The notes below the pieces were generated by a model. That model saw only the letters and a list, made by a program, of their open reading frames with translations. It was not told the origin of the DNA and ran no database searches. Below are positions 5,117 to 8,672 of a DNA stretch of 34,339 nucleotides, piece after piece (the stretch's first letter is position 1; each line of letters opens with the position of its first letter). Origin of the DNA: Flavobacteriales bacterium (lineage in GTDB: Bacteria; Bacteroidota; Bacteroidia; Flavobacteriales; UBA1820); NCBI GenBank assembly GCA_017620815.1, contig JAGAUI010000019.1, forward strand, positions 1-34,339. The letters run 5' to 3'. Position numbers and translations under genes: made by a program.

Positions 5117-6202
5117 TTATTTTTCTGTCATCACAGCATTCTGACGTTCTATGGATTCTGTATGTATCGCCTCAAATACCGCACGTACAAATGCTTCAGA
5201 AAGGTTCTGTTTCTGCCCATCGGCTACGGTTTTGGCTAGCACATCCTTCCAACGCGTATTCTGAAGGATAGCCAGATTGGCTTCTTTTTTCACCTCACCT
5301 ATCTGCTGTGCTACATTCATACGAGCACCTAGTATAGATATTATCTGGTTATCTATCTCGTCTATCTGCTGACGCAAAGCCGCAAGACGTATTGCAGCTT
5401 CTCCATCGGCACTAGCCCTACGCAAATAAAGGTCTTCGGTCATTTTTTTAACAGCATCGGGTACCAACTGTTGTGAAGCATCACTCCACGCACATTCAGG
5501 GTTGCAGTGACTCTCTATCATCAGTCCGTCAAAATGTAGGTTAAGAGCCATCTGTGAGACAGGCATCACTAGCTCACGACAACCCGATATATGTGAAGGA
5601 TCACATATTATAGGTAGTTCTGGATGACGACGACGTAGTTCAATAGGTATCTGCCACTGTGGGACATTACGATATTTGGTCTTGGCATAGGATGAAAAAC
5701 CACGGTGAATAGCTCCTATTTTCTTTATTCCACAAGCATTAAGACGTTCTATTGCTCCCATCCATAGGTCAAGGTCTGGATTCATAGGGTTTTTGACAAG
5801 CACCACTTTATCTGTATCACGCAACGCCTCGGCCAATTCCTGCATAGTAAATGGGCTGGCTGTGGTACGAGCTCCTATCCATAGCACATCTATATCATAT
5901 TTGAGGGCTAGACGTACATGTTCTGCATTGGCTACTTCGGTACCTACCTTAAGTCCCAATTCTTTTTTTACACGAGAGAGCCATTTAAGAGCCTCTTCTC
6001 CCATTCCTTCAAAACTACCGGGACGTGTACGAGGTTTCCAAACACCCGCACGATAAACATGTATATTTCTATGTATAAGTCCACGGGCTGTTTCCATTAC
6101 TTGGTCTTCTGTTTCGGCACTGCATGGGCCTGCTATACCTAGAGGTATATTCTCATTTCCCAATCCCCACTCAATCATAGGGAGTATATCAAATGTCTTC
6201 AT
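5117..6202 (-). CDS. Bifunctional DAHP synthase / chorismate mutase
   Basis: 361 aa. Residues about 15-260 are a type I-beta 3-deoxy-7-phosphoheptulonate synthase: GIAGPCSAE at 22-30, VWKPRTRPGSFEG at 53-65 and CDPSHISG at 200-207 are its phosphoenolpyruvate, phosphate and metal-site motifs. Residues about 273-350 are an AroQ-type chorismate mutase (LRQQIDEIDNQIISIL, then RMNVAQQIGEVKK). The fusion performs the first step of the shikimate pathway and the chorismate-to-prephenate step. In this family the mutase domain can confer feedback inhibition by prephenate or chorismate. Lies 13 nt after the prephenate dehydrogenase gene, which uses its product. Bacteroidota commonly carry this domain order. 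Confidence 0.95.
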   Translation of the reverse strand: MKTFDILPMIEWGLGNENIPLGIAGPCSAETEDQVMETARGLIHRNIHVYRAGVWKPRTRPGSFEGMGEEALKWLSRVKKELGLKVGTEVANAEHVRLALKYDIDVLWIGARTTASPFTMQELAEALRDTDKVVLVKNPMNPDLDLWMGAIERLNACGIKKIGAIHRGFSSYAKTKYRNVPQWQIPIELRRRHPELPIICDPSHISGCRELVMPVSQMALNLHFDGLMIESHCNPECAWSDASQQLVPDAVKKMTEDLYLRRASADGEAAIRLAALRQQIDEIDNQIISILGARMNVAQQIGEVKKEANLAILQNTRWKDVLAKTVADGQKQNLSEAFVRAVFEAIHTESIERQNAVMTEK

Positions 6203-6215
6203 CGCTTTTTATGTT

Positions 6216-7097
6216 TTATCGTTTGTTTTTTGATTTCTTTTCTTTTTCTTCTAGAACGCCACGTACACGATTGGCTTGTGATATGAGCGTACGTACTACG
6301 TCTGCATTGGCAGATTTTATGGCGTGTTTAAAGAGTATCACGTTTTCTATATATTCGTCCAGGACGTCTATTATAGCTTCGCGGTTTTCTGTGAATATAG
6401 GTACCCACATATCGGGAGAACTTTTGGCAAGACGAGCCGTCGATGCAAAACCACCGCCTGCTAGATGCATTATATTCTCCTGACTACGTTCCTTGTTAAG
6501 TACCGTAAGAGCAAGTGCATATGAGGATATATGTGAAATATGCGACACATATGCAACACTCTCATCGTGTGCTGCAGGAGTCATCTTTACTATTTCTGCA
6601 CCCAGTGTTTCATACATAGTCTCTATGACTTTTACTTTTTCAACATCGGCATCTGGATATGGCAACACTATCACCGTATGACCATAGAAAAGGTCATCAA
6701 GAGATGCCATTGGTCCAGAATTTTCTGTACCTGCCATAGGGTGTGTAGGCACAAATCTACTATGCGAAGGATGTGAAGACACCATATCAACTATATTCTT
6801 TTTGGTACTGCACACATCTATCACTATGGTCTCTTCCCCACTTTTATCCAGAGCTTCTCTCACTATCTCTCCAGATACATCTACAGGTGCAGCGACGACT
6901 ACTATGCTCGCTTTACAAGCACGCTCCATATCCACCACTTCGTCTATGTATCCTGCCTCTAGAGCCATACGAGAGTGGTCTGCATTCATATCCAGCCCTA
7001 TCACACGAGACGTGAAACCACATTTTTTCACCCCTCGTGCTAGTGATGTACCTATAAGACCTAGTCCTATTATGCTTACCTCTTTTACCATCATCAC
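6216..7097 (-). CDS. tyrA: Prephenate dehydrogenase
   Basis: 293 aa. An N-terminal NAD(P)-binding Rossmann motif IIGLGLIGTSLA (9-20) and the prephenate dehydrogenase signature VPTHPMAGTENSGP in the centre identify the enzyme that oxidatively decarboxylates prephenate to 4-hydroxyphenylpyruvate, the tyrosine precursor. The all-alpha dimerisation domain with HISHISSYALA follows. No C-terminal ACT domain, so allosteric control by Tyr is not evident; control may lie in the operon leader. The N-terminus reads MMM; the first ATG sits 2 nt after the stop of pheA, suggesting translational coupling. Confidence 0.93.
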   Translation of the reverse strand: MMMVKEVSIIGLGLIGTSLARGVKKCGFTSRVIGLDMNADHSRMALEAGYIDEVVDMERACKASIVVVAAPVDVSGEIVREALDKSGEETIVIDVCSTKKNIVDMVSSHPSHSRFVPTHPMAGTENSGPMASLDDLFYGHTVIVLPYPDADVEKVKVIETMYETLGAEIVKMTPAAHDESVAYVSHISHISSYALALTVLNKERSQENIMHLAGGGFASTARLAKSSPDMWVPIFTENREAIIDVLDEYIENVILFKHAIKSANADVVRTLISQANRVRGVLEEKEKKSKNKR

Positions 7098-7099
7098 AT

Positions 7100-7930
7100 T
7101 TAGTCTATATTATGTTTATAAATGCCTAGTATTTCCATCTCTTGGACTTGATGTGAAACGACTTCCATACAGCTATCAAATGTAGCAAGCGAAGGGAACA
7201 TCACATCTGCATGAAAAGCATACTCCCAAGGACGTTCCATAATGGCAACGCTTTGAATTTTGGTAAGGTTAAGCCCGTGCATAGCAAATACCGAAAGTAT
7301 CTTGGCTAGGCTACCAGACTCATGCCGTGCTACAAAACGTATAGAAGCTTTATCGGCATTTTCTACTTGTGGAGTATTTTTATGCCCTATCACAAAAAAA
7401 CGAGTGTAGTTATCATTCATAGTCTGGATATTACGAGCCAAAATATCCATATCAAAAAGTCTGGCACATAATTCTGATGCTATAGCTCCCATGTGTCTCA
7501 TCTTGCGTGAGGCAACCTTACGTGCCGAACGTGCCGTATCATCACTCTCCAGCAGGCGTATCTCTGGATGATGTGAAAGGAAATTATCACATTGAAGGAG
7601 TGCCATAGGGTGTGATTCTACTTCGGTGAGGTCTTCTATCTTAACTCCACGAGAGGCTAGAAGGCAGTGATTTATACGCACATAAACTTCGCCTATTATC
7701 TTCTGATCATAAAGACCTAGAAGTTTATGATTCTGAAGCAAAGACCCTGCTATGGAATTTTCTATAGCCATAACTCCATAGTCTGCCTCTCCTTTTTCCA
7801 ATGCCTCGGGGACTTGCTTGAATGTAGCACACTCTACAAATTCTGCATCTTGTCCAAAGAATTTTTCTACCGCCACATGATGGTAAGAACCCCTTATGCC
7901 TTGAATGGCAACCGTAATGTTTTTTTCCAT
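7100..7930 (-). CDS. pheA: Prephenate dehydratase
   Basis: 276 aa from the ATG at 7930 (an in-frame ATG at 7942 would add 4 residues). Numbering from 7942: VAIQGIRGSYHH at 11-22, ENSIAGS at 61-67, the catalytic TRF (Thr180-Arg181-Phe182), and a C-terminal ACT domain from about 200 (ESGSLAKILSVFAMHGLNLTKI) that usually binds Phe for feedback inhibition. Converts prephenate to phenylpyruvate in Phe synthesis. The ATG at 7942 is immediately after the U tract of the leader terminator, so its initiation region would lie in the terminator stem; I prefer 7930. First structural gene of the aromatic operon and the direct target of the attenuator at 7944-8079. Confidence 0.93.
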   Translation of the reverse strand: MEKNITVAIQGIRGSYHHVAVEKFFGQDAEFVECATFKQVPEALEKGEADYGVMAIENSIAGSLLQNHKLLGLYDQKIIGEVYVRINHCLLASRGVKIEDLTEVESHPMALLQCDNFLSHHPEIRLLESDDTARSARKVASRKMRHMGAIASELCARLFDMDILARNIQTMNDNYTRFFVIGHKNTPQVENADKASIRFVARHESGSLAKILSVFAMHGLNLTKIQSVAIMERPWEYAFHADVMFPSLATFDSCMEVVSHQVQEMEILGIYKHNID

Positions 7931-7943
7931 AATCTCTATCATT

Positions 7944-7978
7944 AAAAAGACCGCTCTCAGGCATCTGGGAGCGGTCTT
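7944..7978 (-). terminator. Conditional (attenuator) terminator before pheA
   Basis: In RNA sense: arm AAGACCGCUC (7978-7969), inner loop of 12 nt with a 3-bp extension, arm GAGCGGUCUU (7956-7947), then UUU, giving five consecutive U. A strong intrinsic terminator only 13 nt before the chosen pheA start and 20 nt after the leader ORF stop. Its first arm can alternatively pair with the upstream segment at 8013-8020. Confidence 0.88.
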
Positions 7979-7998
7979 GTTTATCTTTTTTATCTATA

Positions 7999-8079
7999 CT
8001 AGATACACACACGACCGCTCTGGTCTCCATAATAGAAACCAAAGTAATAAAACAGTCCAAATGTGCATATTTGCTTCAT
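7999..8079 (-). CDS. Phe/Tyr-rich leader peptide, 26 aa
   Basis: Starts ATG 8079-8077, stops TAG 8001-7999. Residues 7-17 read FGLFYYFGFYY: four Phe and four Tyr codons in eleven. The remainder (MKQICT before, GDQSGRVCI after) is unremarkable, and the GDQSGR codons also encode the antiterminator segment. Too short for usual gene callers. Placement between luxS and pheA, aromatic codon content matched to the pathway below, and overlap with a terminator/antiterminator pair make a regulatory leader peptide by far the best explanation. GAGG lies only 1 nt before the ATG, too close to be a good ribosome-binding site, but Bacteroidota often initiate without one. Confidence 0.85.
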   Translation of the reverse strand: MKQICTFGLFYYFGFYYGDQSGRVCI

Positions 8080-8207
8080 ACCTCGTTTTAATGTTTTTAT
8101 GTTTTTTCCTTACGAGAGGCAATATTCGGAATAAAAAATGTATCTCACAACATTTTTATTAAAAAATTTATCATTTGCCCTATCATATCTGTATTTTAAT
8201 GGCATAT

Positions 8208-8672
8208 CTACCTATCTTCCCCATAGATAGATGTAGAAATTCCCTCATCAAGTACCTTATGAGCATACTCTTTGGCTCCAAATAGCGAAAGGTCGCGGTA
8301 GTTACCACACTGAATAGCATTGGCTGCTGGGACTTCTTCGGCCTTCATCACATCTTGCAATGATAAAACCAAAGCGTCTCTTACCTCCTCTACGCTGTTA
8401 TCCCCCCACAGTGACAAGTAAAAACCCGTCCTGCATCCCATAGGCGAAAGGTCTATGACCCCGTCTATATGCTCTCTTATATGATGTGCCAGCAGGTGTT
8501 CTATGGCGTGAAGAGCAACCGTAGGGATACTCTCTACATTTGGTTGGGTGAAACGGAGGTCATATTTGCTTACTTTATCACCCTTTTCTCCTTCCAGAGT
8601 GCAACATTTCCTCACATATGGAGCAACTACTTTTCTATGGTCAAGTGTAAAACTCTCTACTTTTTCTTCCAT
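8208..8672 (-). CDS. luxS: S-ribosylhomocysteine lyase (autoinducer-2 synthase)
   Basis: 154 aa, full family length. Metal-binding HAIEH at 55-59 with the distal Cys122 (QCG) and the catalytic Cys80 in GCRTGFY are all present. LuxS cleaves S-ribosylhomocysteine to homocysteine and DPD, the precursor of autoinducer-2, as part of the activated methyl cycle in the cytoplasm. Monocistronic by appearance; divergent from the symporter at 8777, with about 104 bp between. A TATATTTA box on the minus strand at 8699-8706 is a near match to the -7 consensus. Confidence 0.96.
   Translation of the reverse strand: MEEKVESFTLDHRKVVAPYVRKCCTLEGEKGDKVSKYDLRFTQPNVESIPTVALHAIEHLLAHHIREHIDGVIDLSPMGCRTGFYLSLWGDNSVEEVRDALVLSLQDVMKAEEVPAANAIQCGNYRDLSLFGAKEYAHKVLDEGISTSIYGEDR

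Follow-up and report, generated by a model that had tools for sequence, protein, structure and literature searches.

A Predicted Phe/Tyr Leader-Peptide Attenuator Upstream of pheA in the Class Bacteroidia

Introduction

Transcription attenuation by a translated leader peptide is textbook material for the Proteobacteria. The Phe attenuators of the gammaproteobacteria (pheL-pheA and pheM-pheST; RF01859) combine a short ORF rich in Phe codons, an overlapping antiterminator, an intrinsic terminator and prephenate dehydratase downstream. A survey by Lopatovskaya et al. from 2010 reportedly may also touch on the Bacteroidota. A 2010 attenuator survey listed no cases beyond the Proteobacteria and Actinobacteria, its own Firmicutes case aside (PMC2965389). 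The "Bacteroidete tryptophan peptide leader RNA" (Bacteroid-trp, RF01692) was described in the same year (Weinberg et al., 2010; PMC2864571), and short ORFs reminiscent of leader peptides have been noted in Bacteroides thetaiotaomicron (PMC7366714). According to its main text, a 2021 transcriptome of Flavobacterium psychrophilum offered strong hints that amino-acid operons are preceded by leader-peptide attenuators, and showed a structured pheA 5' element that, like the hisG element, is conserved in the Flavobacteriaceae and matches no Rfam family (PMC9723704).

The locus considered here resembles the gammaproteobacterial Phe attenuators in all four of the features above, but uses Tyr codons as often as Phe codons, stands before an operon that also contains tyrA and a DAHP synthase/chorismate mutase fusion, and belongs to a different phylum, in which the leaders of the class Bacteroidia are almost devoid of Shine-Dalgarno sequences. 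With Bacteroid-trp it shares phylum and logic, whereas that element senses Trp and controls trp genes, and its model finds no match in the pheA leader. The pheA 5' element of F. psychrophilum concerns the same gene in the same order, and is probably the same element, although neither the sequence of a leader nor its codon content or distribution appears in the main text of that report (PMC9723704).

Materials and Methods

The window, by which is meant the whole stretch of DNA analyzed (34,339 nucleotides), comes from a gut Flavobacteriales MAG, and not from the Bacteroidales, the order to which an earlier note on this DNA had turned. The pheA gene and its upstream DNA were collected from relatives at four taxonomic levels (genus, order, class and phylum); compared families are cited by number (f2, f16 and so on) and loci by L number. 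A complete device was defined as a Phe/Tyr-rich ORF, a terminator, and pairing of the 3' codons of the ORF with the 5' arm of that terminator. To model ribosome position, the A site was placed at each codon in turn, the RNA was hidden up to 13 nt past the first base of that codon, and the RNA folded was the portion emerged before the second arm of the terminator.

Anatomy of the Leader Region

The features of the region and of the operon behind it are as follows, in the order of transcription.

8208-8672, minus strand: luxS, upstream of the leader ORF
8119-8150, minus strand: TTGTGAGA-N-TTCCGAATATTGC, a promoter-like block some 40 nt upstream of the leader ATG; candidate leader promoter
7999-8079, minus strand: leader ORF MKQICTFGLFYYFGFYYGDQSGRVCI, ending in a stop codon; 26 codons, with 4 Phe and 4 Tyr putative regulatory codons in residues 7-17
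8062-8070, minus strand: segment 1, AUAUGCACA, in leader codons 4-6; pairs with UGUGUGUAU (8003-8011) at the leader 3' end
8013-8020, minus strand: segment 2, GAGCGGUC, the antiterminator half within codons 20-23; complementary to 7969-7976
7969-7978, minus strand: segment 3, terminator 5' arm, AAGACCGCUC
7947-7956, minus strand: segment 4, terminator 3' arm, GAGCGGUCUU
7944-7948, minus strand: terminator U-tract UUUUU, its 5' end partly paired
7100-7930, minus strand: pheA, prephenate dehydratase (PF00800, E 6e-58); first in-frame ATG at 7942
6216-7097, minus strand: tyrA, prephenate dehydrogenase (NF006307, 302 bits, above cut-off; PF02153/PF20463)
5117-6202, minus strand: DAHP synthase/chorismate mutase fusion, DAHPS-CM (PF00793 and PF01817)

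The Phe codons of the leader are residues 7, 10, 13 and 15, and the Tyr codons are residues 11, 12, 16 and 17. Segment 2 begins after a gap of 8 nt from the last Tyr codon, and a further 20 nt separate the end of the ORF from the terminator hairpin (7978-7947), in whose first arm the stretch GACCGCUC (7976-7969) is complementary to segment 2. Present together are a short ORF with a run of end-product codons, evident from both sequence and conservation, an intrinsic terminator between this ORF and pheA, and, in silico, a suitably placed antiterminator that shares the terminator 5' arm and is mutually exclusive with the terminator; the genes downstream serve the biosynthesis of the amino acids presumed to be sensed. 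Much of this had been read in the earlier note, every coordinate of which proved right to the base when re-derived from the window sequence: the 26-codon ORF with its 4 Phe and 4 Tyr codons, the complementary segment, the 8-nt geometry and the 10-bp terminator with five U were all recovered, and Pfam matches bore out pheA, tyrA and DAHPS/CM downstream. The competing 1:2 hairpin had not been noticed there.

The pheA start is more likely at 7930 than at 7942, judging from a genus relative (L003) that has no ATG at the latter position; the candidate ATG at 7942 abuts the terminator U-tract. The promoter-like block is kept, as read by eye, in the three genus loci L001-L003, and in the window it is a poor, imperfect match to the Bacteroidota consensus. 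Of 118 leaders, 56 have the -7 box of the Bacteroidota, TANNTTTG, against 8% expected from shuffling, mostly 4-50 nt upstream of the leader ATG, which places the leader first among the ORFs of its transcript. All but one of these leaders (117/118) start with ATG, and a Shine-Dalgarno-like sequence is nearly absent before them, a scarcity that is usual in the Bacteroidota.

Conservation and Covariation

The leader ORF is the sole ORF of 14-45 codons with 8 Phe or Tyr residues in 12 on either strand of the window, and when the 270-nt upstream region was shuffled with dinucleotides preserved, none of 2000 shuffles gave an ATG ORF with even 7 or more in 12 codons. Leaders with at least 7 in 12 are present in 91 of 115 relatives, compared with frequencies of 0.6% in shuffles and 0.4% elsewhere in those loci, and both Phe and Tyr occur in 117 of 118 leaders. 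Between L001 and L002, codons 1-17 differ by two synonymous and no nonsynonymous changes, so that the Phe/Tyr run of L002 is altered only synonymously, whereas six nonsynonymous changes lie past codon 17; the run in L003 differs through an in-frame insertion. The PheA protein itself is 93% identical in a Flavobacteriales MAG from water-buffalo caecum.

Segment 2 varies in sequence among loci (GAGCGGUC in the window; GCGGGAUUG, ACGGGACUG, CAGGAUUGU and UCGAGACGUU elsewhere) and yet pairs best with the terminator arm of its own locus. The mean pairing energy with the own arm is -12.5 kcal/mol, compared with -7.8 for the arms of other loci, -5.5 after shuffling and -2.4 for the leader 5' end, and none of 10000 permutations matched the own-locus value. 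In a set of 66 mutually dissimilar leaders the difference persists (own -14.0 vs other -8.8 kcal/mol; 0/20000 permutations); these permutation tests treat related loci as exchangeable, in which respect they are conservative, and are independent of the alignment used for the covariation counts. Those counts come from a plain MAFFT alignment of 46 loci that was not fitted to structure, and gave 33 double-changed cells for the 2:3 helix (12 in shuffles, 10-18 in other registers) and 56 for the 3:4 terminator helix (17.5 in shuffles), values that understate the pairing for L001-L003, as the genus of the window is five columns out of register in this alignment. The pairing of segment 1 with segment 2 differs far less between own and other loci (-9.8 vs -8.9 kcal/mol; 1/10000 permutations), and a 1:2 protector hairpin is only modestly supported by these comparisons.

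The position of segment 2 is also similar among loci, starting a median of 9 nt (10-90%: 6-13) past the last aromatic codon in the 118 leaders, a spacing that is partly selected, since the search for segment 2 began past that codon, which does not apply to the covariation. The Phe/Tyr codons are conserved, unlike the RNA that lies beyond the pairing segments.

Folding and Ribosome Position

The terminator stem of the window, of 10 bp with an inner 3 bp, has a folding energy of -20.6 kcal/mol (z -6.7) and is followed by the five U, and the antiterminator hairpin (8020-7969) is of similar stability (-19.2 kcal/mol, z -6.1). The fold of the whole leader has a z of -6.2, with 0 of 200 shuffles as good, and its MFE includes the pairing of 8070-8062 with 8011-8003, which completes a set of 1:2, 2:3 and 3:4 pairings like that of the classical attenuators.

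In the codon-by-codon model, the predicted probability of the 2:3 pairing in the window is 0.66-0.81 with the ribosome at the Phe/Tyr codons 7-16 and 0.50 at Tyr17, and falls to 0.25 or less after Tyr17 and to 0.00 at the stop codon. Over the 118 leaders the mean is 0.76 for stalls at Phe/Tyr codons compared with 0.12 at the stop, and the switch point of the model is directly past the last aromatic codon. Once the full terminator has emerged, however, equilibrium favors 3:4 in the window even with a stalled ribosome (2:3 probability at most 0.09), and read-through would therefore have to depend on kinetic trapping of 2:3, as it does in classical attenuators. With no ribosome in the model, 2:3 still forms in most loci (mean 0.68), which leaves the default state of an untranslated leader uncertain, and termination in that state is not claimed.

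Distribution Among Relatives

The complete device was found in 128 of 168 pheA upstream regions from the class Bacteroidia, as opposed to 2 of 1008 shuffles, and spans 25 families, in keeping with the earlier suggestion of a widespread mechanism. Nearly all families of the class with this type of pheA have Phe/Tyr-rich leaders 60-330 nt upstream of the gene, examples being MKQICTFFNSFYYFGFYYGMQSGLLYVHR (same genus), MIQFANIYFSFFYNFFFFGNESGKLYV (f2), MASNRFYFSNNFYFFFSRSQDCAMVI (f3), MTSTRAYFWFYFGYYFFFYGRKPEVLLLKVNG (f18) and MNSFSYSYFFFFYFYFFRR (f128); in f15 and f78 the device has a shorter leader with five aromatic residues. Leader and terminator tend to occur together, with both present in 130 of the 168 loci and neither in 26, while the ORF alone is present in 4 and the terminator alone in 8 (Fisher P 2e-19, which is nominal since the loci are related and this test, unlike the permutations, is not conservative in that respect). 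A hairpin kept without any Phe/Tyr-rich ORF, which the earlier note had named as grounds for abandoning its attenuator reading, is thus not the pattern seen, as five of the eight terminator-only loci have a shorter, five-aromatic leader; that reading is instead supported by the relatives, in which both parts co-occur and the terminator and antiterminator arms covary as it had anticipated.

The device is missing in f16, whose genomes are of 600 kb, in most of f6, and in f75, f24, f116 and a few others. In L014-L017 (f16), L025-L030 (f6) and L144-L146 (f75) pheA is kept and leader and terminator are both absent, except that L025 retains a terminator-like hairpin alone. Reduced, endosymbiont-like genomes seem to have lost the control element. 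Outside the class, the device was present in 5 of 27 loci, all from other classes of the phylum (L172-L176). The PheA proteins of these five most resemble those of the Bacteroidia (E below 1e-62), suggesting a joint transfer of the gene and its attenuator.

In some loci two Phe/Tyr-rich leader ORFs, each with a terminator, stand in series upstream of pheA. This arrangement occurs in all three genomes of f23 (L132, L133 and L134), and also in L024, L128, L152 and L156. To our knowledge, few or no tandem leader-peptide attenuators have been described.

Other Amino-Acid Leaders and Rfam Searches

Other amino-acid operons of the genome to which the window belongs are preceded by leaders of a comparable kind. 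A His-rich leader, MKNILLHHTHHIYIIATTAK, lies before hisG (L214, 1209-1271, plus strand); it is followed by a terminator, its final codons hold an antiterminator segment, and leaders with HHHH are found upstream of hisG in many relatives. A Leu/Ile/Val-rich leader, MNLIIDTLLITVLLLLVVPVVR, precedes ilvD (L248, 1041-1109, minus strand), again with a terminator and a complementary antiterminator in its 3' codons, and has counterparts in the genus relatives L241 and L245. Leaders with WWW occur upstream of trpE in relatives; the antiterminators found for these by a simple search are weak. In L217 and L218 the WWW leader ORFs before trpE are matched by RF01692 at 71 and 67 bits, confirming this known family as a trp leader in the two relatives.

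The window itself has no match to RF01692 (gathering threshold 49 bits), and its leader contains no Trp. Nor is it matched by the Phe_leader model RF01859 (threshold 55 bits), for which the best relatives reach about 31.5 bits (E 0.14); these weak scores were dropped as evidence of homology, as the model also scores an unrelated AT-rich palindrome in L217.

Discussion

Taken from sequence and comparison, the ORF, the terminator, the alternative pairing with its covariation and spacing, the co-occurrence of the parts and the operon behind them make it very probable that transcription of the pheA-tyrA-DAHPS/CM operon is attenuated here by a ribosome-mediated switch that senses charged tRNA-Phe and tRNA-Tyr. 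That the ribosome stalls and is coupled to RNA polymerase, that transcription terminates here and which way the operon responds are inferred; events would run as follows. The leader ORF would be transcribed first, and when Phe or Tyr is short, the ribosome would stall at one of the eight regulatory codons in residues 7-17. This would leave segment 2 (8020-8013) free to pair with segment 3 (7976-7969) upon its emergence, and formation of 2:3 would pre-empt the 3:4 terminator, allowing RNA polymerase to continue into pheA. With Phe and Tyr plentiful, the ribosome would instead reach the UAG and cover segment 2, so that 3:4 would form and transcription would end at about 7944. The 1:2 hairpin, in which leader codons 4-6 pair with the 3' end of the leader, may favor the terminated state if the leader is untranslated.

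A different use of the same hairpin would be translational, hiding the pheA start region until the leader ribosome opens it, either instead of termination or besides it. In the window the hairpin and U-tract do end 1-14 nt upstream of possible pheA ATGs, which suits such a role, but we consider it unlikely, given that the stem is followed by a U-tract in relatives (at least 5 T in 6 was the search criterion; almost universal by eye) and that the spacing between the terminator and the point where PheA homology begins is so variable (median 26 nt, 10-90%: 14-77) that occlusion would not tolerate it. It is also unlikely that the peptide has a function in trans besides attenuation. The argument for this is one of precedent, peTrpL of Sinorhizobium being a leader peptide reported to act in trans (PMC7298713), while in the present case the peptide outside the Phe/Tyr run is not kept between families and is explained by RNA pairing.

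Structured 5' regions upstream of amino-acid operons are often sensors in their own right, and the RNA could on this basis bind a small molecule, an uncharged tRNA directly in the manner of a T-box, or a protein, with the ORF incidental. This is very unlikely, as no Rfam family, T-box leaders and riboswitches included, matched the window at threshold, and 11 relatives gave no match even at E <=1, weak leader-peptide families excepted; it would also have to accommodate Phe/Tyr codons that are conserved where the RNA outside the pairing segments is not, and the His-, Trp- and Leu/Ile/Val-rich ORFs borne by his, trp and ilv operons. That the hairpin is an ordinary luxS terminator and the ORF a chance reading frame is scarcely credible. 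In L001 and L002 luxS does stand before the device in like orientation, but it is not upstream of the device in L003; chance does not account for such an ORF, gains and losses of leader and hairpin coincide, and segment 2 within the ORF covaries with the hairpin. In several relatives (L003, L005, L105 and others) the longest frame upstream points away, so that no gene on that side can own the terminator, which refutes this reading.

With attenuation as the preferred reading, the question of novelty can be narrowed. The earlier note knew of no described case in the Bacteroidota and supposed the mechanism overlooked, and this holds in part: RF01692 and the F. psychrophilum report, as far as its main text goes (PMC9723704), are precedents, and attenuation of this kind is itself known; what appears new in this well-supported case is its spread through the phylum, the sensing of Phe together with Tyr, and the tandem arrangement. 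The pheA attenuator has no Rfam family, and, in the openly accessible literature, the sole related report found amounts to a passing sentence.

More broadly, attenuation is likely to be an old and general means of amino-acid control across the Bacteroidota, comprising mixed Phe/Tyr leaders at pheA in 25 or more families of the class, leaders rich in His, Leu/Ile/Val and Trp at hisG, ilvD and trpE, respectively, and sometimes tandem units. If this is true, attenuation works in bacteria almost without Shine-Dalgarno sequences, ribosomes would have to trail RNA polymerase closely, and transcription-translation coupling in the Bacteroidota would become directly testable, with the leader as a ready reporter for the coupling of ribosome and RNA polymerase in such bacteria. 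The tandem double attenuators would offer a natural case of how two serial stop signals shape a response. For annotation, the gain is a new RNA element, and with it numerous small genes that have so far gone unannotated. Present in most of the sampled families of the class Bacteroidia that have this pheA, and with strong covariation, the attenuator may explain how aromatic amino-acid synthesis could be controlled in gut and environmental Bacteroidota.
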